Under the pieces are notes generated by a model. That model saw only the letters and a list, made by a program, of their open reading frames with translations, did not search any database and was not told the DNA's origin. Positions 27,899-57,035 of a stretch of DNA of 64,000 bases are shown piece after piece; the first letter of the stretch is position 1; each line of letters begins with the position of its first letter. Origin of the DNA: Arthrobacter woluwensis (lineage in GTDB: Bacteria > Actinomycetota > Actinomycetes > Actinomycetales > Micrococcaceae). Made by a program: the position numbers and the translations under genes. The stretch is from assembly GCF_900105345.1 (NCBI RefSeq), contig NZ_FNSN01000003.1, positions 1,426,001-1,490,000 on the forward strand, written 5' to 3'.

Positions 27899-31202
<3,304 letters not shown>

Positions 31203-31206
<4 letters not shown>

Positions 31207-32069: not shown

Positions 32070-32816
32070 GTGAACGAATCTCCGATCGCCGTCGAGGTCC
32101 GGGGCATCAGCAAGCAGTTCGTGCTGAGGCATTCCCGCTCCATCAAGGAGGCCATCGTCTGGCTGTTCAAGGGCCGGAAGGGTGATCTCTCCAGCAAGTT
32201 CCACGCTCTCAAGGACATCAACCTGGAGATCCGTCAGGGCGAGAGCGTCGCGCTGCTCGGCCTGAACGGGTCCGGCAAGTCGACGCTGCTGAAGCACATC
32301 TCCGGTGTCATGACGCCGGACGAGGGCACGGTGCGGACCCGGGGCCGGGTGGCCGGTCTGATCGAGGTCGGCGCGGGCTTCCACCCGGACCTCTCGGGCC
32401 GGGACAACGTCTTCCTCAACGGCGCCATCCTGGGGATGACCGAGGAGCAGATCACGGAACGGTTCGACTCGATCGTCGAATTCGCCGAGATCGAGCAGTT
32501 CATCGACACCGAGGTGAAGTTCTACTCCTCCGGCATGTACCTGCGGCTGGCCTTCTCGGTGGCGGTGCACACCGACCCCGAGGTGTTCCTCGTGGACGAG
32601 ATCCTGGCGGTGGGCGACGAGCCCTTCCAGCGCAAGTGCCTCACCAAGATCGAGGAACTGGTCAATGCCGGGAAGACGCTCGTCGTGGTGAGTCACGATC
32701 TGGACCTGGTGCAGAGGATCTGCCGCCGGGGCGTGCTGCTGGAACACGGCAACCTCGTGATGGACGGCCCGAGCCACGACGTGGTCGAACTCCTGCGCAG
32801 CCGTGAGAATCGCTGA
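32070..32816 (+). CDS. wzt: Polysaccharide ABC exporter ATP-binding protein, Wzt/TagH type
   Basis: ATPase of 248 residues. Walker A is GLNGSGKST at 64-72, the signature is YSSGMYLRLAFS, Walker B is VFLVDEILAVGDEPF, and the H-loop is VVVSHDLDL. The N-terminal SKQFVLRHSRSIKEAIVWL is the gate-helix region shared by Wzt and TagH. It ends right after the nucleotide-binding domain, so it lacks the C-terminal carbohydrate-binding domain of longer Wzt proteins, like mycobacterial Rv3781. It is the last gene of the glf-glfT2-wzm-wzt unit. A gap of 111 bases separates it from the next operon. Confidence 0.93.
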   Translation: MNESPIAVEVRGISKQFVLRHSRSIKEAIVWLFKGRKGDLSSKFHALKDINLEIRQGESVALLGLNGSGKSTLLKHISGVMTPDEGTVRTRGRVAGLIEVGAGFHPDLSGRDNVFLNGAILGMTEEQITERFDSIVEFAEIEQFIDTEVKFYSSGMYLRLAFSVAVHTDPEVFLVDEILAVGDEPFQRKCLTKIEELVNAGKTLVVVSHDLDLVQRICRRGVLLEHGNLVMDGPSHDVVELLRSRENR

Positions 32817-32927: not shown

Positions 32928-34217
32928 GTGAAAATTGCAGTCATCGCCCTGGGCAAGATCGGGCTCCCGCTTGCCGTCCAGTTCGCGTCGAAGGGCCACG
33001 AGGTGGTCGGCGTCGACGTGAACCAGACCGTGGTGGACCTGATCAACCAGGGGCAGGAACCGTTCCCCGGTGAGGCCCACCTTCAGGAGAAGCTCTCCGA
33101 ACTGGTGCCCGCAGGCAAGCTGAAGGCGACCACCAGCTACGCGGAGGCCGTCCCCGGCGCCGACGCGATCGTCCTCGTGGTCCCGCTGTTCGTCGACTCC
33201 GAGGCCCGTCCCGACTTCGGCTGGATGGACGCTGCGACGGCGGAACTGGCCAAGCACCTCACCCCGGGAACCCTGGTCTCCTATGAGACGACCCTGCCCG
33301 TCGGCACCACCCGCACCCGCTGGAAGCCGGCCCTGGAAGCCGGTTCCGGTCTGGTGGAGGGCAAGGACTTCCACCTGGTCTTCTCCCCGGAGCGTGTCCT
33401 CACGGGCCGCGTCTTCGAGGACCTCCGCAAGTACCCCAAGCTCGTCGGTGGACTGAGCGAGGAAGGCGCCCGCCAGGCGGTCGAATTCTACGAAGCCGTG
33501 CTCGACTTCGACGAGCGCCCCGACCTCAAGCGCCCCAACGGCGTCTGGGACCTGGGCTCCGCCGAGGCCTCCGAACTCGCGAAGCTCGCCGAGACCACGT
33601 ACCGCGACGTCAACATCGGGCTCGCCAACCAGTTCGCCCGTTTCGCCGGATCCCAGGGCATCGACGTCTACCAGGTCATCGAGGCGTCCAACTCTCAGCC
33701 GTACAGCCACATCCACATGCCCGGCATCGCCGTCGGCGGCCACTGCATCCCGGTGTACCCGCGCCTGTACCTCTGGAACGACCCGGAGGCGACCGTCGTG
33801 CGTGCGGCTCGTGCCGCCAACGCCGACATGCCCGACTACACCGTGGGCCTGCTGGAAGGCGCCTATGGCGACCTGAGCGGCGCCCGCGTCGTCGTGCTCG
33901 GCGCCGCCTACCGTGGTGGCGTGAAGGAGACCGCGTTCTCGGGCGTGTTCGACGCCGTGCGCTCGCTCGAGGCCCGCGGGGCCACCGTCACCGTGCACGA
34001 CCCCCTGTACACCGACGCCGAGCTGGAGAAGCTCGGCTTCACGGCACATCACCTGGGCGAGCCCGTGGACGCGGCCGTCGTCCAGGCCGACCACGCCGAA
34101 TACCGAGAGCTGACGCCCGAGGCGCTGCCCGGCATCAAGGTCTTCGTCGACGGCCGCCGGGTCAGCAGCGCGGAGCAGTGGCCGGGCGTGACCTACCGGG
34201 TCATCGGCAAGGCCTGA
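32928..34217 (+). CDS. wbpA: UDP-N-acetylglucosamine 6-dehydrogenase-like (WbpA type)
   Basis: Nucleotide-sugar dehydrogenase of 429 residues. It makes a UDP-uronic acid by two NAD-dependent oxidations, probably on UDP-GlcNAc given its neighbours. The N-terminal NAD motif is VIALGKIGLPLAV, followed by VVGVDVN. The catalytic Cys is C273 in AVGGHCIPVYPRLYLW. The C-terminal domain has VVVLGAAYRGGVKE. Alternative substrates such as UDP-ManNAc (WecC) cannot be excluded by sequence. The GTG at 32928 is chosen because MKIAVIALG is the family start and GAGGA lies upstream. It opens the operon wbpA-D-E-B and a glycosyltransferase. Confidence 0.85.
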   Translation: MKIAVIALGKIGLPLAVQFASKGHEVVGVDVNQTVVDLINQGQEPFPGEAHLQEKLSELVPAGKLKATTSYAEAVPGADAIVLVVPLFVDSEARPDFGWMDAATAELAKHLTPGTLVSYETTLPVGTTRTRWKPALEAGSGLVEGKDFHLVFSPERVLTGRVFEDLRKYPKLVGGLSEEGARQAVEFYEAVLDFDERPDLKRPNGVWDLGSAEASELAKLAETTYRDVNIGLANQFARFAGSQGIDVYQVIEASNSQPYSHIHMPGIAVGGHCIPVYPRLYLWNDPEATVVRAARAANADMPDYTVGLLEGAYGDLSGARVVVLGAAYRGGVKETAFSGVFDAVRSLEARGATVTVHDPLYTDAELEKLGFTAHHLGEPVDAAVVQADHAEYRELTPEALPGIKVFVDGRRVSSAEQWPGVTYRVIGKA

Positions 34218-34235
34218 GGCCGGAAGGGAACAGTC

Positions 34236-34835
34236 ATGAGCGCATTCATCGCGCCCGGAGCGGACGTCTCCGACGCCGCGGTCCTGGGCGAAGGGACCAA
34301 GGTCTGGCACCTCGCCCAGATCCGTGAGGAAGCCACTCTCGGTGAGAACTGCATCGTCGGCCGTGGCGCCTACGTCGGCACCGGGGTCCAGATCGGCGAC
34401 AACACGAAGATCCAGAACTACGCCCTCGTCTACGAGCCGGCGAAGCTCGGCAAGGGTGTCTTCATCGGGCCGGCCGTCGTGCTGACCAACGACACCTACC
34501 CGCGGTCCGTGAGCCCCGACGGCTCGCTCAAGAGCGCACATGACTGGACCCCGGTGGGCGTGACCATCGAGGACGGCGCGTCCATCGGCGCCCGTGCGGT
34601 CTGCGTCGCCCCCGTCACCATCGGCCGCTGGGCGACCGTGGCAGCGGGCGCCGTGGTGGCCAAGGACGTCCCGGCGTTCGCGCTCATGGTGGGCGTCCCG
34701 GCACGCCGGGTCGGCTGGGTCGGCAAGGCCGGCGAGCCCCTGAAGCAGGACGGCGAGTACTGGGTCTGCCCGGCCACGGGTCAGCAGTACCGCGAAAACG
34801 GAAACACTCTTTCGGAAGTCGAGGACAACGCATGA
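34236..34835 (+). CDS. wbpD: N-acetyltransferase with left-handed beta-helix (WbpD type)
   Basis: Hexapeptide-repeat acetyltransferase of 199 residues. In the UDP-ManNAc3NAcA route the WbpD enzyme acetylates the 3-amino group of UDP-GlcNAc3NA. Repeats run from about residue 10 to 140 (GEGTKVWHLAQIREEATLGENC, VGRGAYVGTGVQIGDN). They are followed by the WbpD-like end VPARRVGWVGKAGE and a short YWVCPATGQQY stretch. The residue pattern matches WbpD/WlbB rather than serine acetyltransferase. It overlaps the aminotransferase by four bases (ATGA). Confidence 0.83.
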   Translation: MSAFIAPGADVSDAAVLGEGTKVWHLAQIREEATLGENCIVGRGAYVGTGVQIGDNTKIQNYALVYEPAKLGKGVFIGPAVVLTNDTYPRSVSPDGSLKSAHDWTPVGVTIEDGASIGARAVCVAPVTIGRWATVAAGAVVAKDVPAFALMVGVPARRVGWVGKAGEPLKQDGEYWVCPATGQQYRENGNTLSEVEDNA

Positions 34836-35923
34836 GCACGGAATTCATCCCGGCAGCCAAGCCGATCATCGGGGACGAGGAGCGCGCAGCCGTCGACGCC
34901 GTCCTCGCGTCGGGCATGCTGGCCCAGGGCAAGGAGGTGGCTGCCTTCGAGAAGGAGTTCTCCGACGTCCTGCTGGACGGCCGCGCCTCCGTGGCCGTGA
35001 ACTCCGGCACCTCGGGCCTGCACCTCGGCCTCCTGGCCGCCGGAGTGGGCCCGGGCGATGAGGTCATCGTGCCGTCCTTCACCTTCGCCGCCACGGGCAA
35101 CTCGGTCGCCCTGACCGGCGCCACCCCCGTCTTCGCCGACATCGAGCTGGACCACTACACGCTGGACGTGGATCACGTGGCCTCCCTCATCACGGACAAG
35201 ACCAAGGGCATCCTTCCGGTGCACCTGTACGGTCACCCCTTCGCCGCGGAGGCCTTCGCCAAGCTGGCCGAGGAGCGCGGCATCGACCTTTACGAGGACG
35301 CCGCCCAGGCGCACGGCGCCAGCCTGAACGGCCGCAAGGTCGGCACCTTCGGCACCTTCGCCATGTTCAGCCTCTACCCGACGAAGAACATGACCAGCGG
35401 TGAAGGCGGCATGGTCTCCACGCCGGACGCCGACGTCGAGCGCCGCCTGCGTCTCCTCCGGAACCAGGGCATGGAGAAGCAGTACGAGAACGAGCTCGTG
35501 GGCTTCAACGCCCGCATGACCGATCTGCACGCCGCGATCGGCCGCGTGCAGCTGACCAAGGTGGAAGGCTGGACCGCGCAGCGCCAGTCGAACGCCGCGT
35601 TCCTCGACGCGAACCTCGAAGGCGTGGGCACCCCCAAGGTCGCCGACGGCGCCGTGCACGTCTACCACCAGTACACGATCCGCGTCCCCGAAGACCGCGA
35701 CGGCCTGGCCAAGGCCCTCCGTGAGGAGCACAACATCGGTTCCGGCGTCTACTACCCGGTCCCGAACCACCGGCTGCCGTCCTTCAACCGCACGGAGGAC
35801 CTGCCCAACACGGAGACTGCGGCCCTCGAGGTGCTGTCCCTCCCGGTGCACCCGTCCCTCAGCCAGGACGACCTGGAGCGCATCGTCACCGCGGTGAACA
35901 CGCTCGTCAAGGCAGGTGCCTGA
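34832..35923 (+). CDS. wbpE: DegT/DnrJ/EryC1 aminotransferase (WbpE type)
   Basis: PLP-dependent sugar aminotransferase of 363 residues. The predicted step is transfer of an amino group from glutamate to the 3-keto UDP-sugar made by WbpB. The PLP Lys is K185 in SLYPTKNMTSGEGG. Other conserved pieces are NSGTSGLHLGLLA, the Asp at 156 in LYEDAAQAHGA, and ARMTDLHAAIGRVQL. The start ATG overlaps wbpD. Its place between wbpD and wbpB supports the role; DegT enzymes have many substrates, so the pathway context carries the weight. Confidence 0.87.
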   Translation: MSTEFIPAAKPIIGDEERAAVDAVLASGMLAQGKEVAAFEKEFSDVLLDGRASVAVNSGTSGLHLGLLAAGVGPGDEVIVPSFTFAATGNSVALTGATPVFADIELDHYTLDVDHVASLITDKTKGILPVHLYGHPFAAEAFAKLAEERGIDLYEDAAQAHGASLNGRKVGTFGTFAMFSLYPTKNMTSGEGGMVSTPDADVERRLRLLRNQGMEKQYENELVGFNARMTDLHAAIGRVQLTKVEGWTAQRQSNAAFLDANLEGVGTPKVADGAVHVYHQYTIRVPEDRDGLAKALREEHNIGSGVYYPVPNHRLPSFNRTEDLPNTETAALEVLSLPVHPSLSQDDLERIVTAVNTLVKAGA

Positions 35924-35926
35924 GCC

Positions 35927-36919
35927 ATGGCGAATCTGCGCGCAGGCCTGATCGGCCTCGGCATGATGGGGCGTCACCACGCCCGCGTGCTGAAGGAGAT
36001 CGACGGCGTCGACCTCGTGGCCGTCGCCGACTCCTTCGGCGATCCCCACGGCGTGGCCGGGGGAGTGCCGCTGCTGTCCTCCGTGGAGGAACTCATCGCC
36101 CAGGGGCTCGACATGGCCGTGGTGGCCGTTCCGACCGGTCTGCATGAGGAGGTGGGACTCGCCCTCGCCGAGGCCGGTGTCCACACGCTCGTGGAGAAGC
36201 CGATCGCGGCCTCCGTCCCCGCGGGGGAGCGTCTCGTGGAGGCCTTCGACGCGAAGGGTCTTGTCGGCGCCGTCGGGCACATCGAACGCTTCAACCCGGC
36301 CCTGCAGTCGCTGCGGGCGCGGATCGAAGCCGGCGAGCTCGGCGACGTGTACCAGATCGCGACGCGCCGCCAGGGCCCGTTCCCGGCCCGCATCGCCGAC
36401 GTCGGCGTCGTCAAGGATCTCGGCACCCATGACATCGATCTGACGGCGTGGCTCGCCCAGAGCCCGTTCGCCACGATCTACGCGCAGACCACGACTCGCA
36501 GCGGACGTCCGCACGAGGACATGGTGGTGGCGACCGGCCGCCTCGAGGGCGGCGTGATCACCAACCACCTCGTGAACTGGCTTTCGCCCATGAAGGAGCG
36601 GATCACCATCGTCACGGGCGAGAAGGGCGCCTTCGTCGCCGACACCGTGACCGCTGATCTGACGTTCTTCGAGAACGGCACCGTGGCCACGCAGTGGGAG
36701 TCCATGGCGGCTTTCCGCGGCGTGTCCGAGGGCAATGTGACCCGCCTGGCCATCGCCAAGCCGGAGCCACTGCGCACCGAGCACGAGGCCTTCCGCGACG
36801 CCATCCTCGGCATCCGCAACGATGTGGTCACGATGCGTGAGGGCCTGGCGACGCTGCGCGTGGCCGAGGCGTGCCTGGAGTCCGCCGCGACGGGCAGCAC
36901 CGTGGAGCTCTCCGCGTAG
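35927..36919 (+). CDS. wbpB: Gfo/Idh/MocA oxidoreductase (WbpB type)
   Basis: NAD-dependent dehydrogenase of 330 residues. In the predicted pathway it oxidises C3 of UDP-GlcNAcA, the step before transamination. The Rossmann motif is GLIGLGMMGRHHARVL. The EKP motif is at 90-92 (VEKPIA). Substrate-binding residues lie in GHIERFNPAL and KDLGTHDIDLTAW. The second domain is the usual beta-sheet (LEGGVITNHLVNWLSPMKERI). The gene starts 3 bases after wbpE and its stop overlaps the following glycosyltransferase start by one base. Confidence 0.87.
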   Translation: MANLRAGLIGLGMMGRHHARVLKEIDGVDLVAVADSFGDPHGVAGGVPLLSSVEELIAQGLDMAVVAVPTGLHEEVGLALAEAGVHTLVEKPIAASVPAGERLVEAFDAKGLVGAVGHIERFNPALQSLRARIEAGELGDVYQIATRRQGPFPARIADVGVVKDLGTHDIDLTAWLAQSPFATIYAQTTTRSGRPHEDMVVATGRLEGGVITNHLVNWLSPMKERITIVTGEKGAFVADTVTADLTFFENGTVATQWESMAAFRGVSEGNVTRLAIAKPEPLRTEHEAFRDAILGIRNDVVTMREGLATLRVAEACLESAATGSTVELSA

Positions 36920-38082
36920 TGTCAGTGCCCACGAAGACCCTGATCGCCACCAGGCTGTTCACTCCTGAGGTCGGGGCCGCGGCCTTCCGGCTGCAGGCTC
37001 TGGCGGACGGCCTGGTGGAGGACGGACTGGACGTCGAGGTCCTCAGCACCACGCCGCCGCGGTCCGCCGGGCCCTGCCGGGATTCGGTGCGGGTGCGGCG
37101 CTGGCCCGTCCTGCGGGACGCCGGCGGCAATGTCCGCGGCTATGTGCAGTACCTGAGCTTCGACGTGCCGCTGTTCTTCCGCCTGCTGCTCAGCCGGGCG
37201 GACGTGGTGGTCTCGGAGCCGCCGCCCACCACCGGACTGGTGGTGGCGGTGAGCTCCCTGCTGCGGCGGCGTCCTTTCGTCTACTACGCCGCGGACATCT
37301 GGAGCGACGCCCTGCAGGCGATGAACGTCGGCGGGCCGGTGCACAGGGCGCTCCGGGGGATCGAAGGATTCGTGCTGCGCCGGGCGCGCGCCGTGATCGC
37401 GGTCTCGGACGGCGTCGCGGATCAAGTGGCGTCTTTCGGCGTTCCCCGGGACAGGATCCACTCCGTGGGCAACGGCATCGACATGTCGACCTTCGTGCCG
37501 GACGGCCCCGTCGCCGATCAGAACGCCAAGCCCTATTTCGTCTACACGGGCACCATGTCCGAGTGGCAGGACGCCGGAATCTTCATCAAGGCCCTCGCGC
37601 AGCTGCCCGGGAACGTGGAGCTGCGCTTCTTCGGGCAGGGCTCCGATGAGGAGGCGCTCAAGGCCCTCGCGGAGCGCGAAGCCCCCGGCCGGGTGCATTT
37701 CGGCGGGGTCATCCCCGCAGAGGAGGCGGCCCGCTGGATCCGGGGCGCCGCTGCCGCGGTCGTGAGCATCAAGCCGGGCCAGGGTTACGACTTCGCCAAG
37801 CCCACCAAGATCTACGCCGCGGCGGCCTGCGGCACGCCCGTCCTCTATGCCGGGACCGGCGATGCCGCGGTGCTCGTGTCCGACGGCGGGCTCGGCGCGG
37901 CGAGCGACTTCACCCCGGACGCGGTGGCCTCAGCCATGCGTGCGGTGCTGGACGACCCGACCTTCGGGGGGACGCAGAGCCGCGACGGCCGGGTCGACTG
38001 GGTCCGGGAGAACGCCTCGCTCGCGGCCGCGGGGCGTCGTGCCGCCGCGGTCGTCCGGACGGCGGCCCACGGCGCGGGCTGA
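36919..38082 (+). CDS. GT4-family glycosyltransferase
   Basis: GT-B glycosyltransferase of 387 residues. The N-terminal acceptor domain has ATRLFTPEVGAAAFRLQALAD. The C-terminal donor domain has YFVYTGTMSEWQDAGIFIKAL, LRFFGQGSDEEALK and the late signature KPTKIYAAAACGTPVLYAG, which lacks the classic E-x7-E spacing. It starts with a GTG that shares its first base with the wbpB stop, so it is the last gene of the wbp-like operon. It is a fair candidate for transferring the diacetamido-uronic acid sugar, but acceptor and linkage are unknown. A long terminator hairpin follows. Confidence 0.82.
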   Translation: MSVPTKTLIATRLFTPEVGAAAFRLQALADGLVEDGLDVEVLSTTPPRSAGPCRDSVRVRRWPVLRDAGGNVRGYVQYLSFDVPLFFRLLLSRADVVVSEPPPTTGLVVAVSSLLRRRPFVYYAADIWSDALQAMNVGGPVHRALRGIEGFVLRRARAVIAVSDGVADQVASFGVPRDRIHSVGNGIDMSTFVPDGPVADQNAKPYFVYTGTMSEWQDAGIFIKALAQLPGNVELRFFGQGSDEEALKALAEREAPGRVHFGGVIPAEEAARWIRGAAAAVVSIKPGQGYDFAKPTKIYAAAACGTPVLYAGTGDAAVLVSDGGLGAASDFTPDAVASAMRAVLDDPTFGGTQSRDGRVDWVRENASLAAAGRRAAAVVRTAAHGAG

Positions 38083-38116
38083 CGCAGCGACCCTTTCCGG
38101 GGAACCTCCCGGCAGA

Positions 38117-38166
38117 ACAGACGACGGCGGCGGGACACCATCAGGTGTCCCGCCGCCGTCGTCTGT
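38117..38166. terminator. Long bidirectional terminator hairpin after the wbp-like operon
   Basis: Perfect 23-bp inverted repeat, arms 38117-38139 and 38144-38166, loop ATCA. It lies between the convergent glycosyltransferase and WbpI-like genes. No T-run follows. Confidence 0.85.
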
Positions 38167-38181
38167 CGTCAGGGGTGGGTG

Positions 38182-39249
38182 TCACTCGCCGCCGAAGGTG
38201 TCCAGGAGTGCCTGGGCGGTGCGGGCGGCGGCCTGGCCGTCGCCATACGGCGCGGCGTCCGTCGGGGCCGGCGCGGGACGCTGGACGGTGGAGGCCAGAA
38301 TGCTCAGGTCCTGATCGACCAGGACGTTCCAGCCGAGGTCGACGGTCTCGACCCACTCGGTTTCAGGGCGGATCGTCGTGCACGGGACGCGGAGGAGGAA
38401 GGCCTCCTTCTGGAGCCCGCCGGAGTCGGTGACCACGCCCGCGCTGCGGGAGACGGCGTCCACGAGCTGCGGGTAGGCCAGGGGCTCGTTCGGGACGAGG
38501 GAGCCCGCCGCGAGATCGATGCCGTGCTTGTCGGCCAGGGCCCGGAGCCGCGGGTGGGCGAGAAGCAGCACAGGCTTGTCGAGGCCGGCGAGCGATTCGA
38601 TGATCGCGGAGAGCCGCTCGGGGCTGTCGGTGTTGTCCGGGCGGTGGATGGTGCACACGTAGTAGCCGCCGTCCTCCAGACCGTGGGGGAGCGGAGCGGG
38701 CTCGGTGGCCAGGCGATCGCGGACGGCGTACAGCACGTCCGTCATGACGTCTCCCACCAGGATGGACTTCCCGCTCAGGCCTTCGGTGGCCAGGTGGTCC
38801 ATCGCGACCTGGGTGGGGGCGAGGAGCAGATCGGAGGCATGGTCCGTCAGGACCCGGTTGTGCTCCTCGGGCATGCGGCGGTTGAAGGACCGCAGGCCGG
38901 ACTCCAGGTGGGCCACGGGGATGTGGATCTTCACCGCGGCGAGTGCCGCCGCGAGGGTCGAGTTCGTGTCGCCGTAGACGAGCACGACGTCGGGCTTCTC
39001 CTCTTCGAAGACGCGCTCGAGACCGGCGAGCATCGCCCCGGTCTGCTCGCCGTGCTTGCCGGAGCCGACCGCCAGATTGTGGTCGGGCTGGGGGATGCCC
39101 AGATCGCGGAAGAAGACGTCGCTCATCAATTCGTCGTAGTGCTGTCCGGTGTGGACGATCACGTGATCCGCCTTGCCCTCCAGGGCTTTGGCGATGGGTG
39201 CGAGTTTGACGAATTGGGGTCGCGCGCCGACGACACTGAGAATACGCAT
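38182..39249 (-). CDS. wbpI: UDP-N-acetylglucosamine 2-epimerase family, WbpI-like
   Basis: Non-hydrolysing 2-epimerase of 355 residues. WbpI acts on UDP-GlcNAc3NAcA to give UDP-ManNAc3NAcA. Conserved parts are VVGARPQFVKLAPIAKAL, HTGQHYDELMSDVFF, VYGDTNSTLAAALAA and DSGGLQKEAFLL. Two features fit WbpI better than WecB: RSFNRRMPEEHNR and the acidic TEWVETVDLG. A WecB/MnaA role on UDP-GlcNAc is the alternative. The ATG at 39249 is chosen; TAGACT on the coding strand ends 7 bases before it, suggesting a leaderless mRNA. It converges with the wbpA-D-E-B operon, completing that pathway on the opposite strand. Confidence 0.85.
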   Translation of the reverse strand: MRILSVVGARPQFVKLAPIAKALEGKADHVIVHTGQHYDELMSDVFFRDLGIPQPDHNLAVGSGKHGEQTGAMLAGLERVFEEEKPDVVLVYGDTNSTLAAALAAVKIHIPVAHLESGLRSFNRRMPEEHNRVLTDHASDLLLAPTQVAMDHLATEGLSGKSILVGDVMTDVLYAVRDRLATEPAPLPHGLEDGGYYVCTIHRPDNTDSPERLSAIIESLAGLDKPVLLLAHPRLRALADKHGIDLAAGSLVPNEPLAYPQLVDAVSRSAGVVTDSGGLQKEAFLLRVPCTTIRPETEWVETVDLGWNVLVDQDLSILASTVQRPAPAPTDAAPYGDGQAAARTAQALLDTFGGE

Positions 39250-39298: not shown

Positions 39299-40453
39299 TC
39301 AGGCGTGCGGCTCAGGAGCCCTGAAGATCCCCTGCCGGGTACGGAGCTTCTCCAGGACGTAATGGGTCAGGACCGCGTCACGGGAGAGGACCGCGGAGAG
39401 CCGGAGGGGCAGCAGTTCGCCGGCGCGGCCGGCACGGGCATGGCGGTCCGCCGCGGCGCGGAGGGAGGCGAGGTCGCCGGCGTCGCAGGCTTCGCGGACC
39501 AGGGCGGCGTCCCGTCGGCTCAACGCCGGCGGCAGACCGTGGGCGAAGGACTCCAGACGCTTCAGCAGCTCCGTCCAGTGGCGCTGTTCCTCCGCGTTCC
39601 AGAGCCGTTCGGTGTTCCCGGCGTCGGATTCCGTGCCCGCCGTCCGGCGCAGGAGCGCCCCGACGCCGTGGACGCGGAGCACCTTCAGGGCGATCGCCCG
39701 GCGTTCGGCACGGGTGGCGTCCTTGAGCCAGGGATCTTCGAGCAGAGCCTCGAGCCAGCGGAACTCCTCGCCGATCGGCAGGACCGTGCTCGTGACGCGT
39801 CCCTCGCCGGAATCGTCGGTCTGGTGGTAGGCCGGGGCGCCGTACGGGTAGCAGATGGTGCCAGAACGGAACCAGAGCTTGAGGGTGGTGGAGAGGTCCT
39901 CGCCGGTGCGGAGGCCTTCCTCATAGCGGTAACCGACGAACTCCAGTGCCGACCGGCGGAGCAGACCGTAGGGGACACTGCGGTAGACGAGCCCGTCCTT
40001 CAGGGCGTCGAGGGTCCGCGGGGCCGACGGGCGGATGCGGGGAGACCGGAGGATGGCGCCCGATGGAGTGCGCAGCGGCGCGATCACCGCCGCGGCACGC
40101 TCGTCCTCCGCGCAGGTCCACCAGGCCGCCAGAGAACCCGGCTCGAGGTGATCGTCCGAGTCCAGGAAGCACAGGAACGTGGCATCGCTGTGGTCCAGCG
40201 CCCAGTTCCGGGGACCCGCGGCCGAGTGCAGGCCGTCGCGGAGGACCTCCTGCCGCAAGCCGTCGCCGCCGGGCAGCGCCTTCGCGGCCCGGGCGACGTC
40301 CTCGTCGCCGAGGTTGTGCCAGACGAGCATCACGCGGAGGTCCACGCCGAGCGCGAGGAGGGCGCTGCGCTGGTCCAGGACCGAGCGGACGGCGCGGGCG
40401 GCGGGCCTCCGGATGTCGTGGACGGGGATGACGACGTCGATGGATTGGTTCAT
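39299..40453 (-). CDS. GT2-family glycosyltransferase
   Basis: GT-A enzyme of 384 residues starting IDVVIPVHDIRRPAARAVRS, with the acceptor/donor metal site in FLCFLDSDDHLEPGSLAAW and the later TGEDLSTTLKLWF. The C-terminal third is helical and Arg/Ala-rich. It is a paralogue of the divergent gene 51 bases away, sharing ...SDDxxEPGxLAAW, VYRS/SYRT and GED motifs. GGAG lies upstream of the ATG. The substrate is unknown. It may be cotranscribed with the WbpI-like gene 49 bases downstream. Confidence 0.8.
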   Translation of the reverse strand: MNQSIDVVIPVHDIRRPAARAVRSVLDQRSALLALGVDLRVMLVWHNLGDEDVARAAKALPGGDGLRQEVLRDGLHSAAGPRNWALDHSDATFLCFLDSDDHLEPGSLAAWWTCAEDERAAAVIAPLRTPSGAILRSPRIRPSAPRTLDALKDGLVYRSVPYGLLRRSALEFVGYRYEEGLRTGEDLSTTLKLWFRSGTICYPYGAPAYHQTDDSGEGRVTSTVLPIGEEFRWLEALLEDPWLKDATRAERRAIALKVLRVHGVGALLRRTAGTESDAGNTERLWNAEEQRHWTELLKRLESFAHGLPPALSRRDAALVREACDAGDLASLRAAADRHARAGRAGELLPLRLSAVLSRDAVLTHYVLEKLRTRQGIFRAPEPHA

Positions 40454-42848: not shown

Positions 42849-43850
42849 ATGAGCGAGCAGCCCAAGGTCCTGCAATTCAACGACTGCGCCTTCGTCGCAC
42901 GGAACATGGTGCGGGCGGCGGAACGGGAGGGCATCCACTGGGACTACCTCCCGCCGGAACAGGTCCGTCCCCTGGGAGCCGCCCCGGCGAACCCCGTGCT
43001 GGCCAAGGCCCGGTTCCTGCCGTTCGTCGCGCGCCGTCTGGCCCATCTGCTCCCGGCGGAGGTCGTGCACGTGCATTACGCGACGAGCGCCCGCCTGCTC
43101 AAGGAACGGGGCATGCCGCGCAGGCCGTATCTTCTGACGCTGCACGGCACGGACATCCGCCGGCAGTGGAAGGATCCGCGATTCCACACCGAGATCCAGA
43201 CCGCGATCGACGGGGCCGAGCACGTGTTCTTCGCCAACAACGACACCGCCGGGAATGCTCGTGAAGCCCGCCCGGACGCCGAGTTCCTCCCCGCTCTCGT
43301 CGACGCCAGCAGCCTCCCGGCGTGGGCGCCTGCTCAGGAACCCACCGTGTTCTTCGTGTCCCGCTGGGACGAGGACAAGGGTGTGGAGCGGCAGCTCGAG
43401 CTCGCCGCGGCGCTGCGGGCCGCGCTGGGGCCGGAGGTCAGGCTTCAGGGACTCGACTGGGGGCCGGGAGCCGCCGCGGCCCGGGACGCCGGGGTGGAAC
43501 TGCTGGGCCGGATGAGCCAGCCCGAATACCACGCGACGATCGCCCGCTCTCACCTCACCATCGGCCAGGCGAGTGACAACTTCGCCACGAGTGAGTTCGA
43601 AGCCCTCTGCATGGGCGCGCCCATGGCTGCGGTGGGACATCGGCTCGCACGGCCCGACGACGGCACCACGCCGCCCGTGCTGGAAGGCTCGACCGAGGAG
43701 GTCGTGGAGCAGGCCCTGGAGGCTCTGCGGGACCCGGCCGCAGCCGCCGGGCGCCTGGGAGGGGCCGTCTGGGCGCTGCCCCGCTACGACGCGGCGGCCT
43801 ACGTCCCGCGCCTGTGCGAGCTGTACGAGGCCGCCGCGCGCCGCTCTTGA
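42849..43850 (+). CDS. Glycosyltransferase of GT4-like family (paralogue 1)
   Basis: Protein of 333 residues with GT-B layout. It begins KVLQFNDCAFVARNMVRAAE, has LTLHGTDIRRQWKDPRF in the acceptor domain and VFFVSRWDEDKGVERQLELAA in the donor domain. The E-x7-E is replaced by TSEFEALCMGAPMAAV. The gene at 45815-46777 shares all these blocks in the same order, so they are paralogues that flank the ABC exporter. AAAGGA precedes the ATG. Its stop is 7 bases from the stop of the convergent exporter, with no terminator between. Confidence 0.78.
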   Translation: MSEQPKVLQFNDCAFVARNMVRAAEREGIHWDYLPPEQVRPLGAAPANPVLAKARFLPFVARRLAHLLPAEVVHVHYATSARLLKERGMPRRPYLLTLHGTDIRRQWKDPRFHTEIQTAIDGAEHVFFANNDTAGNAREARPDAEFLPALVDASSLPAWAPAQEPTVFFVSRWDEDKGVERQLELAAALRAALGPEVRLQGLDWGPGAAAARDAGVELLGRMSQPEYHATIARSHLTIGQASDNFATSEFEALCMGAPMAAVGHRLARPDDGTTPPVLEGSTEEVVEQALEALRDPAAAAGRLGGAVWALPRYDAAAYVPRLCELYEAAARRS

Positions 43851-45660: not shown

Positions 45661-45814
45661 GTGGTACTCCGTGACGCATGGGAAGGGATTCCTCTCATAC
45701 TACCGGTGGGCCGCCCGGACCGAGGCGGCGGGACCGGTCTCCGGCCGCGCGGGAAAGGGCGCGAGGACGCCCGCGGTGAGGCCCCGGCCCGTGGCTGATG
45801 AGAAGATGAGGACC

Positions 45815-46777
45815 ATGAATGAGCGGATCCGGGTGACACAGCTGTTCGATTGCGCAGACGTCGGACGGACCTTGGTGCAAGAGGGCAGGCGTCACGGCAT
45901 GCCCTGGCGGCAGATCCAGGGGCCCTGGACGCGAGGCGGCGGAAAGTCCGCGTACTACCGTTTCCGCGCCGAGCAGGCACTGGCGTACCCCCTGACCCAG
46001 CTGTGGCACGTGAACATGGGCGGACGGGCGAAGTGGGCGCGGGGCGCATTCTCCCGGCCGTATGCGCTGACGCTGCATGGCACGGACATCCGTGAGAACT
46101 ATTGGCAGGAGCAGCATCACGCCGCGATGAAGCAGGACATCGACGGCGCGGCGCACGTCTGGTACACCACTCCGGATCTGCGCGAGAAGGCGGAGCGGGC
46201 CCGCCCGGACGCCGAGTATCTCCCTGCCCCGGTCGACATGTCCGAGCTGCCCGCGTGGAACCCGTCCGGCCGGCCCACGGTGATCTTCCCGTCGCGCTGG
46301 GATGCGTCCAAGGGCGGCGACGCGCTCCTCGAGACCGCGGCCGAGGTGGTCTCCGCGGCCGGGGGACAGGCCGACATCGTCGGGCTCGACTGGGGAGACC
46401 GGGCCGCCGAGGCGCGTGACCTCGGGGTCCGCCTGCTGCCGAAGATGAGCAAGGCCGCGTTCCTGCAGGCTCTCTCGACCGCGCACGTCGCGGTGGGCCA
46501 GGTGGCCGGGATCCTGGCGGTCAGCGAGCTCCAGGCCATGGGCATCGGGGTGCCGCTCGTCTTCGCCGACGCCGTCGACGGCTACCCCGAGAAACCCGCC
46601 GCGGTCCACGTCAGCCGCGGCGAGGTGGCCGGCGCGGTCACCGAGGCGCTCCAGGATCCCGCCGCGCTCTCCCGCACGCTGGACGGCCCCGGTTATGTCC
46701 GGAGGAACCACGGCGCGGAGGGGATGATCCCGAAGCTGAACGCCGCCTACGCGAGGATCCTGGAGGAGGCCCGATGA
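45815..46777 (+). CDS. Glycosyltransferase of GT4-like family (paralogue 2)
   Basis: Protein of 320 residues, a paralogue of the gene at 42849-43850: MNERIRVTQLFDCADVGR aligns with that gene's start, and both have LTLHGTDI, then a bulky basic stretch, PDAEYLPA or PDAEFLPA, FPSRWDASKG and a GLDWG block. The catalytic E-x7-E is degenerate (VSELQAMGIGVPLVF). The ATG at 45815 is chosen because it matches the paralogue start; an in-frame ATG three codons earlier is possible. It diverges from the ABC exporter over 154 bases and overlaps the next gene by four bases (ATGA). Confidence 0.78.
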   Translation: MNERIRVTQLFDCADVGRTLVQEGRRHGMPWRQIQGPWTRGGGKSAYYRFRAEQALAYPLTQLWHVNMGGRAKWARGAFSRPYALTLHGTDIRENYWQEQHHAAMKQDIDGAAHVWYTTPDLREKAERARPDAEYLPAPVDMSELPAWNPSGRPTVIFPSRWDASKGGDALLETAAEVVSAAGGQADIVGLDWGDRAAEARDLGVRLLPKMSKAAFLQALSTAHVAVGQVAGILAVSELQAMGIGVPLVFADAVDGYPEKPAAVHVSRGEVAGAVTEALQDPAALSRTLDGPGYVRRNHGAEGMIPKLNAAYARILEEAR

Positions 46778-52260: not shown

Positions 52261-54267
52261 CTACTTGCAGCCCGTGATCTTGTACAGCTTGGCCTTGCCC
52301 TGCTGGTCCAGCAGCTGGACCTTGTGCAGCTTGGCGATCTCCTCCGGCGTGGGGAAGGTGTACTTGACCGTGTTCGGCGAGAGCTCGGTGCCGAAGTCCA
52401 GGATGTAGTAGGCGTTGAGGCGCTTCACGCTCGAGCATACGGCCGGGTCGGTGTCGAGGCCGGTGAGTTTCGAGGTCAACTGGATGTCGTCCGCGCTGGG
52501 ACTTGAGCCGAGCGCGGGGAGGATGACGGCGCGGCCCGTGTAGGCGTATGCGAGAGCGGCGCCCGAAGCGGGGTGACCGATCAGCACCGAGCCCTCCGGG
52601 ACCTTCGTGTCCAGCCGCTCGAGGAGCTTCTCCTCGTCGGGGCTGAGGAGGTTGCCCGGGAAGTTGGGGTCGAACGCCCACTTGCTGCGCAGCACCACGC
52701 CGTTCAGGTTCGGGTTGAACCGGCTCGACTGGAGGGCGAGACCCGCCACGGAGGTCAGCAGGATCGCCAGGACCGCGGTCCCGGCGGTCAGCACGCGGGC
52801 GTCGATGACCTTTCCGAGCCGCCCGATCTGCTGGGCGAGGAGCTTCCAGAGCTCCCACAGTGTCACGGCGCCCAGGGGCAGCGCGAAGACGACCGTCAGC
52901 GCTGCGAGGCGGTGGGCGTCGTGGTACCAGATCTGGCTCCAGAAGTCCCTCCAGGCGCTGTCCGGGAGGCCCGAAGCGGAGATGTAGAGGAAACAGGACA
53001 TGGCGAACCACGCGACCAGATACGTCGCGCGGTGCTGACGCAGCAGCATGACGCCGCCCGCCACCACCAGGATCGTGAGGATCCATGCTTCGGCGAAGCC
53101 GTTGGTGGAGAAGGTGAGGCTCTCGCCCAGGGCACGGCCGGACGAGGTCACGGGAGGCCAGTGCGCGCCGAATTTGGACGGGCGCAGCTTCATCCAGGCC
53201 ACGGTGAAGGCCGCCAAGTACAGGGCGAACGCGAGCGAGACCCAGAGCGCCCGGCGGCGGTCGCGGGTGCTGAAGTACCTGCGGATCTCGCGCCACCAGG
53301 CCACCACGAACAGGACGGCGGCCAGCAGCAGGAGCGTGAGGATCGCGGAGGGGTGTGCCAGGGCCATTCCCGGCAGCACCGCCAGGAAGAGGAGCAAGGG
53401 GGCCACGCGCTGCGTCCAGTGCCCGAACGGCGCCTTCGTGACGCCGAGCAGGAGGGCGATCCCGACGGGGAGGAGGAGCAGGGAGAGCAGGTTGGGGTAG
53501 AGGGTTCCCCAGTCCAGGAGGTGGAACGGGAGGAGGCCGAACGCGCCGCAGAGCACCGCCGTGGTCAGCGCGGCGCCCGACGTCGACGGCACGACCGTCC
53601 GGACCAGCAGGAAGCAGGCCAGGGGCCAGACGACGGCCAGGAGGGCGATCGTCGTGCCGTTGATCGCGAGCGGGATGTCCGCCGACGACAGCTGGGCGAC
53701 GAGTGCCACCGTGTCATGCCAGGCGCCGGGGTAGAAGCCCGTGGTGTTGGACGGGTCCATCGAGGCGAGGGTGAGGGACGAGCCCTTCCCCGTGTCCAGG
53801 ATGAAGCGGATCGCGTTCATGTGGAACACGTTGTCGTAGCGCTGGGAGAAGTTCTCCGGGACCCCGATGATCTGCATGATCCGGCGCACGATGAACGCGC
53901 CGGACAGCACCACGGCGAAGAATCCCACGAGGAATCCCTTGATGTTCGACGGCGACCGCCAGGATCCCGCGTGCTCCGCGTCGGGGCCGCTCATCCAGCC
54001 CACCCGGATCAGCGCCCGGCGCACCAGCACCGCCAGCGCCCCCACGATGACCGTGGTGCCGATCAGGGTCCAGACGTTCCAAGGGATCCGCAGGAACCCG
54101 CCCAGGATCGCCGCGATGCCGATCAGGCTGACGGACACGGGGCCGGAGACGGAGGCCCAGGTCAGTCCACGCGCACCCAGGAGCCGGCTGACCAGCGCTC
54201 CCGGGAGCAGGAAGACGGCGAGAGCCGCCAGAGTGGCAGGGAGAGCTGGTATCCAGGAAATCAGCAA
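52261..54267 (-). CDS. DUF6541-like polytopic membrane protein, possible GT-C glycosyltransferase
   Basis: Membrane protein of 668 residues with about 12-14 hydrophobic segments and a soluble C-terminal tail of about 130 residues. Segments include ALAVFLLPGALVSRLLGARGL and LVAWFAMSCFLYIS. Loops contain FHMNAIRFILDTGKGSS and FSQRYDN, and the outer loops are rich in Trp and His. The overall look fits a polyprenol-phosphate-dependent GT-C enzyme, which matches the DPM-like gene nearby. No D-D or D-E catalytic pair could be fixed with certainty. The start is TTG at 54267 with AAAGG upstream. Its neighbour is the GH25 gene on the same strand. Confidence 0.72.
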   Translation of the reverse strand: MLISWIPALPATLAALAVFLLPGALVSRLLGARGLTWASVSGPVSVSLIGIAAILGGFLRIPWNVWTLIGTTVIVGALAVLVRRALIRVGWMSGPDAEHAGSWRSPSNIKGFLVGFFAVVLSGAFIVRRIMQIIGVPENFSQRYDNVFHMNAIRFILDTGKGSSLTLASMDPSNTTGFYPGAWHDTVALVAQLSSADIPLAINGTTIALLAVVWPLACFLLVRTVVPSTSGAALTTAVLCGAFGLLPFHLLDWGTLYPNLLSLLLLPVGIALLLGVTKAPFGHWTQRVAPLLLFLAVLPGMALAHPSAILTLLLLAAVLFVVAWWREIRRYFSTRDRRRALWVSLAFALYLAAFTVAWMKLRPSKFGAHWPPVTSSGRALGESLTFSTNGFAEAWILTILVVAGGVMLLRQHRATYLVAWFAMSCFLYISASGLPDSAWRDFWSQIWYHDAHRLAALTVVFALPLGAVTLWELWKLLAQQIGRLGKVIDARVLTAGTAVLAILLTSVAGLALQSSRFNPNLNGVVLRSKWAFDPNFPGNLLSPDEEKLLERLDTKVPEGSVLIGHPASGAALAYAYTGRAVILPALGSSPSADDIQLTSKLTGLDTDPAVCSSVKRLNAYYILDFGTELSPNTVKYTFPTPEEIAKLHKVQLLDQQGKAKLYKITGCK

Positions 54268-54332: not shown

Positions 54333-57035
54333 TCAGCGCAGGGTGCCGATCAGACGCCCCGTCCCCAGGGAAGATTCGGGCATTCCCGTGCCCGCGTAGA
54401 ACCAGAGGGATCCGTTGGTGTTGATGCCGACGAAGTCCGCACGGCCGTCGCCGGTGAGATCCCCGGTGGGGGCGAGCGCCTTGTACGCGGTCCACCCGCT
54501 CCGCCCGACCTGACGGCCCGGGGCGATGTACGGCGAGGTCCCGGTGCCCTGGTAGAACCAGAGGGTCCCGTCCCGTCGCACGGCGTACAGATCGGTCCGG
54601 TTGTCGCCGTCGGCGTCGATCGGCAGCACCGAGGTGAAGGTCTGCCAGGAGGAGTTGCCGATCTTCTGCGGCGTGGAGAAGGAGACGTTCCCAGTGCCGG
54701 GGTAGAGCCACAGGGTGCCGTCGGGCTTGATGGCGATCAGGTCCCAGCTGCCCTTGCCGCTGAGGTTGCGCACGGCCTGGACCGATTGGTAGATGTTCCA
54801 GCCGGACCCGATCTGACGTGGCGTGGCGAAGCGGGGGAGACCGTTGGCGGGTCCGTTGTTGGCGGAGAACCAGAGGGTGCCGTCGGGGCGGATGGTCAGG
54901 ACGTCCCCTCGTCCGGTGCTCGAGAAGTCGCCGAGGAACGCCGACTTCACCGGGCCGAAGGAGGTGCTCAGAGCCGTGCCGGTCCCGAGCTGGCCCGAGG
55001 AGGTTCCGGCGTAGAGCAGGGCCTTCCCGTTCGCGTAGATCCCGAGGGTGTCGGCGGGGCCGGCCCCATTGAGGTTGAAGCCACCGGTCACGGCGGCGAA
55101 GGACGTCCAGCCGCCGTTGCCGATCTTGCGGGCCGTGGCGTACCCGTCGGAGTCGCCGGCCACGCCCGGGTAGAAGAGGGAGGACCCGTCGGGCCGGAGC
55201 GCGAGCAGATCGGGCTGGCCGTCCAGATTGGAGTCACCGGTGCTCAGGAGGCCGCTGAACTGGCCCCAGCCGCTGTTGCCGATCCGCAGCGGCGCTCCGA
55301 ACGCGTTCCCGGAAGCGTCGACGCTTCCGAGTGACGGGAAGAGCAGCAGTGCGCCGGTGGCGTCGGACGCGATGAGGCCGGGCGTGTTCGACTTGGTGAA
55401 GGACCCGCTCAGGGCCATGAGGGGGTAGGCGCCCCAGTTCGTTCCGGCGAGCTTCCGTGCCGGCCCGAAGCCCGACGAGCCCGCGCTCGGACTCGAGAGG
55501 CCGGGGATCAGGTAGAGGGCGTTGTCCTGCCCCAGGGCGAGGATGTCCGGCCGGCCGTCCCCGGTGAGGTCGGACCCGCCCAGGATCCTGCTGTAGGAGG
55601 ACCACTGGAGGCCGGGGAGCCGGACCGCGGGCGCGTAGCCCTGGTTTCCGGAGTTGACCGCGCCGGTGCCCGCGTAGAACCAGACGGAGCCGTCGGGACG
55701 GACGCCGAGGAGATCGGGCCGGCCGTCGCCGTTCAGGTCTCCGGCGCCGATGAGCTGCTGGTAGATGTTCCAGCCGCGTCCGATCACCGTGGCCGCGCCG
55801 TACCCGCCGGAGCCGTTGCCGGGGAGCAGTGCGAGGGTGCCGTCCGGCCGGATGCCCACCAGGTCGGGCCGCTTGTCGCCGTTGAAATCGCCGACGGCGG
55901 TGAACCGCGTGGAGTCGCCATAGGTGGCGAAGCGTGAGAGGCCGGTCAGGTCGCCGTTCCAGACATTGGAGTCGCCGGCGAAGGGTCCTTCATCGCTGTA
56001 CTGCCAGATGCTGTACTGCTGCCAGCTGGCCGGGAGAGTGCCGGGGGTGTTGCTCGCGGACGAGGGGTACGCCGCGATCCACAGCGGGTAGGAGGAGAAT
56101 GCCGCCGAATTGCCCGTGCAGCGCTTCCACCAGTCGGTGGTGGTGTAGATGACCGGGTAGCGGCCGGTCAGCTGCCGCATGGTGTTCCCGAAGTCGGTGA
56201 TCCACTTGACCATCGGGGCGCCCGCCAGGTTGTAGCAGGTGTCGCCCGAGTTGTATCCGAGGTCGGTGCGCCCCACATAGGGGTTGTATTCGATGTCGAG
56301 GACGGGAGGCAGGGTCCGGCCGTCGCCGCTCCAGCCGCCGCCGTGGGAGGCGAAGTACCGCGCCTGGTCCGCGCCGGAGGACCAGCTGGGGATGGCGAAG
56401 TGGTAGGCGCCGCGCACCATGCCCTGGTTCGCGGACCCGTTGTACTGCGAGGCGAAGTTCGCGTTCGTGTAATAGGTGCCCTCACTGGCCTTCACATAAG
56501 CGAAGCGGGAGCCGAGGCTCCACTGACTCGCCCAGTCCACCGTGCCCTGCCAGGCACTGACGTCCTGGCCGGGCACCCCGAAGGTCGGCCGCCAGTGCGA
56601 GGTGCTGAAGGCGGCGGGGACGGTGCGCGACAGCCCGGTCGCGGAGCCCGAGAGCCCGCTCGTGGGTGAGCCCTCGGCCGTCTTCTCTGCCGTGAGGGCC
56701 TCGGGCTTCGGCGCGGGTCCGTCGGCGGGTGGCGCCAGGAGCCGCTTCTTCTCGCCGTTCGTGCGCATGGTCGCGCCCTCGCGACCGACGGCCTGGCGTG
56801 CGACGGCGGGGTCACCGGCGGTCTGGCCGTTCGGCAGCGGTTCGGACGGCGCCTGGGGGAGCTGGGTGGGCGCCGGCGCGGCGGTCGACGGTCCGCTCGG
56901 CTCAGGCGTGGGGGCCGCGGCCGCGGTGTAGGCGACGGAGACGAGCAGCACGGTGGACATCGCAGCCGCGGTCAGGCTCCTGGTCAAGGCTCGACGACGG
57001 TGGGCGGGGGCGGCGGGCTGGAACCCGTGGTGCAT
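54333..57035 (-). CDS. Secreted GH25 lysozyme with C-terminal FG-GAP/VCBS repeats
   Basis: Exported muramidase-like protein of 900 residues. A Sec signal peptide covers about 1-42 (SLTAAAMSTVLLVSVAYTAAAA). A Pro/Ala-rich linker runs to about 180. The GH25 domain (about 185-395) has GQDVSAWQGTVDWA and the catalytic DxE in PPVLDIEYNPY near 246-248, plus WQYSDEGPF. The rest is ten repeats of about 55 residues with the pattern GDxNGDGRPDLLGxRPDG, a calcium-binding FG-GAP/VCBS beta-propeller that probably binds wall glycan. GGAG lies 7 bases before the ATG. It sits at the end of the polysaccharide region, and may remodel the wall there. Confidence 0.93.
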   Translation of the reverse strand: MHHGFQPAAPAHRRRALTRSLTAAAMSTVLLVSVAYTAAAAPTPEPSGPSTAAPAPTQLPQAPSEPLPNGQTAGDPAVARQAVGREGATMRTNGEKKRLLAPPADGPAPKPEALTAEKTAEGSPTSGLSGSATGLSRTVPAAFSTSHWRPTFGVPGQDVSAWQGTVDWASQWSLGSRFAYVKASEGTYYTNANFASQYNGSANQGMVRGAYHFAIPSWSSGADQARYFASHGGGWSGDGRTLPPVLDIEYNPYVGRTDLGYNSGDTCYNLAGAPMVKWITDFGNTMRQLTGRYPVIYTTTDWWKRCTGNSAAFSSYPLWIAAYPSSASNTPGTLPASWQQYSIWQYSDEGPFAGDSNVWNGDLTGLSRFATYGDSTRFTAVGDFNGDKRPDLVGIRPDGTLALLPGNGSGGYGAATVIGRGWNIYQQLIGAGDLNGDGRPDLLGVRPDGSVWFYAGTGAVNSGNQGYAPAVRLPGLQWSSYSRILGGSDLTGDGRPDILALGQDNALYLIPGLSSPSAGSSGFGPARKLAGTNWGAYPLMALSGSFTKSNTPGLIASDATGALLLFPSLGSVDASGNAFGAPLRIGNSGWGQFSGLLSTGDSNLDGQPDLLALRPDGSSLFYPGVAGDSDGYATARKIGNGGWTSFAAVTGGFNLNGAGPADTLGIYANGKALLYAGTSSGQLGTGTALSTSFGPVKSAFLGDFSSTGRGDVLTIRPDGTLWFSANNGPANGLPRFATPRQIGSGWNIYQSVQAVRNLSGKGSWDLIAIKPDGTLWLYPGTGNVSFSTPQKIGNSSWQTFTSVLPIDADGDNRTDLYAVRRDGTLWFYQGTGTSPYIAPGRQVGRSGWTAYKALAPTGDLTGDGRADFVGINTNGSLWFYAGTGMPESSLGTGRLIGTLR

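Follow-up and report, generated by a model that had tools for sequence, protein, structure and literature searches.

A predicted gene set for an acidic diamino sugar, with a GnnA-like oxidoreductase, in Arthrobacter woluwensis

A cluster of sugar biosynthesis genes was analysed in Arthrobacter woluwensis, in a stretch of 64,000 nucleotides (contig NZ_FNSN01000003.1, positions 1,426,001 to 1,490,000) that is called the window in the following. The genome has a size of 3.86 Mb and is 99.57% complete. The cluster encodes a dehydrogenase, an acetyltransferase, an aminotransferase, an oxidoreductase and a 2-epimerase, and this gene set for a rare acidic diamino sugar is likely complete. We consider it probable that the product is uridine diphosphate (UDP)-diacetamidomannuronic acid (UDP-ManNAc3NAcA), made from UDP-N-acetylglucosamine (UDP-GlcNAc) for an acidic cell wall glycan. 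For the order of the steps we slightly favor amination at C3, then oxidation at C6 and then epimerisation at C2, unlike the order known from Pseudomonas.

The gene set and its epimerase

The six genes in question are the following.

32928..34217, + strand: nucleotide-sugar 6-dehydrogenase, 429 amino acids, Cys273, GTG start; own clade between WbpA-like and WecC-like proteins
34236..34835, + strand: hexapeptide N-acetyltransferase, WbpD-like; best match in the PDB 3mqg
34832..35923, + strand: pyridoxal phosphate-dependent aminotransferase of the DegT/DnrJ family, Lys185; PF01041, 386 bits
35927..36919, + strand: Gfo/Idh/MocA 3-dehydrogenase (the oxidoreductase), GnnA-like by tree and not WbpB- or WlbA-like
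36925..38082, + strand: glycosyltransferase of family GT4, last in the operon; PF13579/PF13439/PF13692; start at GTG 36925 or at the in-frame GTG 36871
38182..39249, - strand: WbpI-like UDP-GlcNAc3NAcA 2-epimerase by structure matches, residues, tree and fold

The gene set, the types of the epimerase and of the oxidoreductase and the nested gene content described below are computed results, and from these all substrates and products, the order of the steps and the polymer are inferred. Domain and profile matches place all five enzyme classes claimed in an earlier note on this DNA at the locus, and the residues quoted there are correct (Cys273 in GGHC, Lys185 in PTKN, EKP at 90-92, RMPEE and TEWVE). 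Coordinates and gaps also agree with the layout it described: the four sugar genes on the + strand are coupled, with intergenic gaps of 18, -4 and 3 bases, the glycosyltransferase gene ends the operon and the epimerase gene is convergent with it. The gene set lies far beyond chance, because the epimerase matches a UDP-GlcNAc3NAcA 2-epimerase of known structure with 344 bits and because the genes co-occur in other genomes.

The epimerase has its best structure matches in the entries for the UDP-GlcNAc3NAcA 2-epimerase of Thermus thermophilus (341-344 bits), followed by the UDP-GlcNAc 2-epimerase of M. jannaschii (267 bits) and by 4hwg and 7ya2 (162-173 bits), whereas the remaining 2-epimerase structures among the matches listed, WecB and MnaA included, reach 107-132 bits. 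In a tree of 35 rows, 28 Trp-type proteins, including those of the window and of Thermus, are set apart from seven Arg-type proteins, including E. coli WecB, with a support of 98/95 (starred). At twelve active-site positions the window enzyme reads RQKLYDESEREW, the Thermus enzyme RQKAYDESEREW and E. coli WecB REKMHDESERER. According to PMC10622841, the C3 hydroxyl is bound by an Arg in UDP-GlcNAc epimerases; the Thermus enzyme has Trp307 instead, and changes are also found at its positions 18 and 96. The window epimerase has Trp at Thermus position 307 and Tyr at 96. Its predicted model (predicted local distance difference test score 92.6) has nine Thermus entries as top fold matches (Z 44.5-46.0), followed by M. 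jannaschii (Z 42.7) and other UDP-GlcNAc epimerases (Z of at most 40.0). In this nearly complete genome no other protein matches PF02350.

By sequence and model, the enzyme is thus classified as WbpI-like, i.e., as a predicted UDP-GlcNAc3NAcA 2-epimerase, in agreement with the earlier note. The grouping with WecB or MnaA, which the note had named, together with a dehydrogenase clustering with WecC, as the contrary outcome, was not found in structure matches, residues, tree or fold. A reading as WecB was rejected on the bit scores, on Trp in place of Arg at Thermus position 307, on the tree and on the fold Z scores.

Several observations speak against this assignment. Joining the window epimerase clade to the Arg-type proteins is not rejected (p 0.332), and the clade sits either within the Trp-type or at its base. 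At Thermus position 18 the window enzyme has Leu and not Ala, as have the epimerases of six loci discussed below (L163-L168), and Leu at this position is given as typical of UDP-GlcNAc epimerases in PMC10622841; among Trp-type proteins the position is variable (A, L, S, V, C). The M. jannaschii UDP-GlcNAc epimerase is the second-nearest solved relative, and the epimerase trees were calculated without it.

The acetyltransferase matches 3mqg (Lipopolysaccharides biosynthesis acetyltransferase), which we take to be WlbB, with 130 bits and the next structure with 81 bits. It is therefore closest in sequence to a solved enzyme of this pathway and can be described as WbpD-like. For the aminotransferase the best structure matches are 7b0d (275 bits) and 2oga (249 bits), and WbpE, with 199-202 bits, is not the closest; a function as 3-aminotransferase is proposed.

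The oxidoreductase, the dehydrogenase and the proposed route

The oxidoreductase had been called WbpB type in the earlier note, a label that does not hold. In a tree of 36 rows, the window clade, L078, L125, GnnA and three GnnA relatives are grouped at 96/92 (starred), and WbpB joins WlbA on the opposite side of the tree (99/97, starred); the WbpB reference, which scores 675 bits to 3o9z, was taken from L072, a locus with a Thermus-like set. In approximately unbiased (AU) tests, placing the window clade together with L078 and L125 next to WbpB is rejected (p 0.0067), and so is placing them next to WlbA (p 0.00763). The sequence thus classifies the oxidoreductase as GnnA-like and outside the WbpB and WlbA clades. 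According to PMC8036547, GnnA acts on a UDP-GlcNAc precursor; 3q2k is, by its title, a structure of WlbA with UDP-GlcNAcA. Neither of the WbpB entries, 3o9z and 3oa2, is among the best 60 of 74 structure matches to the oxidoreductase.

Other results weigh against a GnnA-like enzyme acting on UDP-GlcNAc or leave the two sides level. In a tree without WbpB rows the GnnA grouping falls to 87/81 and is not starred, and the union of the window clade, L078/L125 and WlbA is not rejected (p 0.181), although that of the window clade and WlbA alone is (p 0.0057); in the tree with WbpB rows, as given above, the larger union is rejected as well. Sequence scores to GnnA (7bvj, 78 bits) and WlbA (3q2k, 77 bits) are level, and the model fold gives no separation (Z 37.9 and 37.3 for GnnA, 37.4 for WlbA); both are outranked by twelve further entries, with 1,5-anhydrofructose reductase at the top. 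The NCBIfam model NF040723 for archaeal UDP-GlcNAc 3-dehydrogenase matches with 215 bits, below its cut-off of 450; the same model gives 89 and 95 bits for two WlbA-like control proteins of other epimerase loci, 210 bits for one GnnA-like protein, 313 for a Chloroflexi relative and 341 for a euryarchaeal one. Another oxidoreductase group accompanying Trp-type epimerases, some members of which are fused to an acetyltransferase, also falls on the GnnA side (99/97, starred), so that this position need not mean UDP-GlcNAc as substrate.

In the loci L075, L079, L084, L102, L104, L145 and L146, which hold Trp-type or WbpI-like epimerases, one open reading frame of 517-587 amino acids matches both the acetyltransferase and the oxidoreductase, as if fused.

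For the dehydrogenase the picture is less clear, and its tree is a further point against the proposed product. The window protein lies in a clade of its own that adjoins WbpA-like proteins at 84/85, which is not starred, and the test does not reject a union of this protein with WecC/Cap5O (p 0.305). FastTree gave the grouping with WbpA full support, but the value of the careful model (84/85) was used instead. The test "window plus wbpA" (p 0.0016) is uninformative, as its set leaves out L068, which falls inside the WbpA-like group. The dehydrogenases near WecB-like epimerases of the same order (L064, L066, L067) fall in the WecC group. In L068, too, the epimerase nearby is of the Arg type, but the dehydrogenase belongs with the WbpA-like proteins, so the dehydrogenase tree is not wholly parallel to the epimerases; the L069 dehydrogenase is outside this tree, and the L066 epimerase is outside the set of epimerases whose residues were read. 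The best NCBIfam equivalog is the archaeal UDP-ManNAc dehydrogenase (264 bits, cut-off 750). This match does not discriminate, because dehydrogenases of WbpI-type loci score 243-349 bits to the same model (5/5).

From these assignments we infer the following route. The GnnA-like oxidoreductase would oxidise C3 of UDP-GlcNAc, the aminotransferase would aminate C3 and the hexapeptide enzyme would acetylate the 3-amino group, giving UDP-GlcNAc3NAc. The dehydrogenase would then oxidise C6 to give UDP-GlcNAc3NAcA and the WbpI-like epimerase would invert C2 to give UDP-ManNAc3NAcA, to be used by the GT4 enzyme of the operon and neighbouring transferases. This order is suggested because the oxidoreductase groups with GnnA and because the trio of oxidoreductase, aminotransferase and acetyltransferase occurs without a close dehydrogenase, as described below. 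UDP-ManNAc3NAcA as the product, as claimed in the earlier note, is still the most likely one, whereas its step-by-step equation with the Pseudomonas route is probably wrong, given the GnnA-like oxidoreductase.

Gene content across genomes and alternative readings

Homologues were counted in 149 genomes of the same order as the window organism (the order set), in a second set of 101 genomes, all from one other genus within the class (those listed have 5.5-11.3 Mb), and in a phylum-wide draw of 149 genomes. In the order set, "close" means above a score gap: at least 423 bits for the epimerase (next 303), at least 545 bits for the dehydrogenase (next 197) and at least 384 bits for the oxidoreductase (next 98), to which G139 with 300 bits and a fragment in G030 were added. 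For the second set the limits were E 1e-70 (oxidoreductase), E 1e-100 (dehydrogenase) and at least 423 bits (epimerase, next 271), and for the phylum draw 1e-60 (epimerase), 1e-40 (oxidoreductase) and 1e-80 (dehydrogenase).

Gene content is nested. In the order set, close homologues of the oxidoreductase are present in 54, of the dehydrogenase in 49 and of the epimerase in 42 genomes, the last including two broken copies (G126, G055); the oxidoreductase counted for G105 and one of two in G119 have one internal TGA. A close dehydrogenase never occurs without the oxidoreductase (0/49), and the epimerase is accompanied by both other genes in 41/42 genomes, the single exception being G126, an 89% complete genome in which the epimerase is partial and close to the end of a contig. 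The second set (oxidoreductase 23, dehydrogenase 22, epimerase 9) is fully nested (9/9; 0/22). In the phylum draw the epimerase is found in 46, the oxidoreductase in 10 and the dehydrogenase in 6 genomes, and the seven distant epimerases read there (L153-L158, L173) are Trp-type. The nesting is therefore valid within the close clade and not phylum-wide. Such an ordered loss of genes would be expected if the trio acts at the start of the route, the dehydrogenase after it and the epimerase at the end.

The genes are also close to each other. Where both are on one contig, which is the case in 39 genomes, epimerase and dehydrogenase are no more than 25 kb apart in 36 (counted over 41 genomes without G126, and for G119, which has two epimerase copies, with the copy nearer to the other genes). 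The aminotransferase gene adjoins that of the oxidoreductase in 24/24 oxidoreductase-holding loci, and the acetyltransferase is present in 22/24 (about 9 kb off in L044 and L049; L058, one of those without it, is cut). Among 11 further loci the aminotransferase is in the same locus in 10 and the acetyltransferase in all 11.

Clean cases of the trio without a close dehydrogenase are G085, G073 and G364. Less clean are G030 (a fragment), G139 (divergent) and G032, where another dehydrogenase is about 2.6 kb away. A profile search for dehydrogenases in the 19-20 kb around the oxidoreductase found none in G085, G073, G139 and G364. On the other side, distant dehydrogenases (about 31% identity) are found elsewhere in G085 and in most genomes, and these, including the one near the trio in G032, might do the C6 step. 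In addition, the genomes are related to each other, so that Fisher p-values for the nesting overstate it and are not independent evidence. Both points count against the explanation proposed here.

Two genomes of the window's family have smaller sets beside a galactan-type gene cluster: G005 (L052) carries the set without the epimerase and has no match at all to that of the window, and G085 (L053) has only oxidoreductase, aminotransferase and acetyltransferase. They are predicted to be natural variants bearing different sugars. The second set, from the genus to which G170 belongs, also contains another class of 2-epimerase with about 45% identity; it is present in 24/101 genomes, with a window-type oxidoreductase alongside in 0/24.

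Three other readings were weighed. In the first, the same product would be reached in the Pseudomonas order, with the dehydrogenase acting first and an oxidoreductase of another subfamily taking UDP-GlcNAcA. The dehydrogenase adjoining WbpA-like proteins at 84/85 would fit this, as would the several oxidoreductase types that accompany WbpI-like epimerases and the route similar to that of P. aeruginosa proposed for S. griseus in PMC13274773. However, the tree test rejects the oxidoreductase with WbpB or WlbA, and the trio is found without a close dehydrogenase but a close dehydrogenase never without the oxidoreductase, so that we regard this order as possible but doubtful.

It is quite unlikely that the product is UDP-GlcNAc3NAcA only and that the epimerase serves another pathway, e.g., UDP-ManNAc for a teichoic acid linkage unit. 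The epimerase gene does lie outside the operon and is the sole PF02350 match of the genome, and in G005, a close relative, only the other four genes of the set are present. However, Trp occupies the substrate-selecting position, the epimerase is found only with the set (except for the fragment in G126) and mostly within 25 kb of the dehydrogenase, and G005, without any match to it, indicates that the function is dispensable in the family. The least probable reading is that of two products, with epimerase and dehydrogenase making UDP-ManNAcA and the remaining three enzymes UDP-GlcNAc3NAc: the union of the dehydrogenase with WecC/Cap5O would allow it, but the epimerase is not WecB-like, epimerase and dehydrogenase without the oxidoreductase occur in none of the 149 and 101 genomes, and by sequence a UDP-ManNAcA-type pair exists as a separate system in the same order, with a WecB-like epimerase near a WecC-like dehydrogenase in G141 and G100 in addition to the full window-type set.

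Related systems, neighbouring genes and significance

The earlier note had implied that such a sugar is new for a Gram-positive actinobacterium. This is not the case, as ManNAc3NAcA is already reported in PMC13274773 and PMC6598116. The S. griseus wall polymer consists of N-acetylgalactosamine (GalNAc) and ManNAc3NAcA and is teichuronic acid-like according to nuclear magnetic resonance (NMR), and its utr genes were assigned to a P. aeruginosa-like route (PMC13274773). S. antibioticus, without utrE, utrF and utrH, has a polymer with GlcNAc3NAcA (PMC13274773); genotype therefore agrees with chemistry, as S. griseus with utrH has ManNAc3NAcA and S. antibioticus without it GlcNAc3NAcA. In Cutibacterium acnes the wall and matrix polysaccharide contains two ManNAc3NAcA residues by NMR (PMC6598116); the likeness to the window would lie in this sugar. 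A paper in Cell cites a review from 2011 that deals with teichuronic acids in actinomycetes.

The utr cluster of S. griseus and the window have the five enzyme classes in common. Six loci (L163-L168) from a genus with large genomes in the same taxonomic class, presumably Streptomyces, encode all five enzymes with 57-71% identity to those of the window; these loci were compared in place of the S. griseus proteins, and the window enzymes may be orthologues of UtrA, B, D, H and J. Domains were checked in one of the six, L163. One strand encodes aminotransferase, oxidoreductase, a GT2 glycosyltransferase with TarS-linker domain, dehydrogenase and an NAD epimerase, and the opposite strand GT4 glycosyltransferase, 2-epimerase and acetyltransferase, which is the arrangement of utrA-E and utrF-J in the published description. 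The TarS-linker domain (PF22181; UtrC-like) gave no match in the window genome, but no control matched either and its absence is thus not established. A difference to S. griseus is that the window genes follow a galactan-type glf-glfT2-wzm-wzt cluster. With the WbpA-B-D-E-I pathway of Pseudomonas aeruginosa and Thermus the window shares the epimerase type, the nearest acetyltransferase and the proposed product, whereas the oxidoreductase belongs to another subfamily. With GnnA/GnnB of Acidithiobacillus, which provide UDP-GlcNAc3N for lipid A, it shares the oxidoreductase type (7BVJ, UDP-N-acetylglucosamine 3-dehydrogenase GnnA; about 28% identity), but the window set adds dehydrogenase and epimerase.

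The genes flanking the set are the following.

28037..29221 (start chosen; the open reading frame opens at 27992), + strand: UDP-galactopyranose mutase Glf; TIGR00031, 335.8 bits, over cut-off
29218..31206, + strand: GlfT2-like galactofuranosyltransferase; PF19320, PF17994
31203..32066, + strand: Wzm-like ATP-binding cassette (ABC) exporter permease; PF01061; NF050109 69 bits, below cut-off 380
32070..32816, + strand: Wzt-like ABC exporter ATPase; PF00005; NF050108 178 bits, below cut-off 400
39299..40453, - strand: GT2 glycosyltransferase adjoining the epimerase gene; PF00535 31.2 bits, over cut-off

In all five of the searched genomes of the family with a close oxidoreductase (window, G141, G113, G005, G085), the locus also contains genes of the galactan-type cluster, which suggests linkage to, or co-export with, a galactofuranan; for the acidic polymer this is a guess. 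Scans of the window gave no promoter (0.3 expected from shuffles), one terminator (2.0 expected from shuffles) and no tRNA.

Further into the window, a DUF6541 protein (PF20176, 595 bits) is encoded at 52264-54138 (-). The distance between such a gene and the close dehydrogenase is at most 1.5 kb in 14/49 genomes and at most 30 kb in 29/49 (distances without partial matches), and 41 of the 74 genomes with DUF6541 have a close oxidoreductase. As a guess, the protein may contribute to such polymers as a membrane glycosyltransferase or as a polymerase. Two predicted proteins amid glycosyltransferase genes, at 42849-43847 (+) and 45806-46774 (+), have no Pfam match at 1e-5, and a protein with GH25 lysozyme-like domain and FG-GAP repeats is encoded at the edge of the polysaccharide region (54336-56768, -).

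A more general proposal, for and against which we see about equal weight, is an actinobacterial route in which a GnnA-like enzyme leads to C3 amination first and UDP-GlcNAc3NAc is the branch point, so that gene content predicts three wall sugars. If this is true, addition of the dehydrogenase would give GlcNAc3NAcA and further addition of the epimerase ManNAc3NAcA, and the route proposed for S. griseus would have to be amended as well. The present finding also shows that oxidoreductases of this kind may be mislabelled when they are called "WbpB". According to PMC13274773, acidic diamino-sugar polymers are the receptors of antibacterial umbrella toxins of Streptomyces, and a species without the epimerase and two further genes bears a different polymer. 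With a three-gene rule for the wall sugar, the surface chemistry of a large group of Gram-positive bacteria could be predicted in part.

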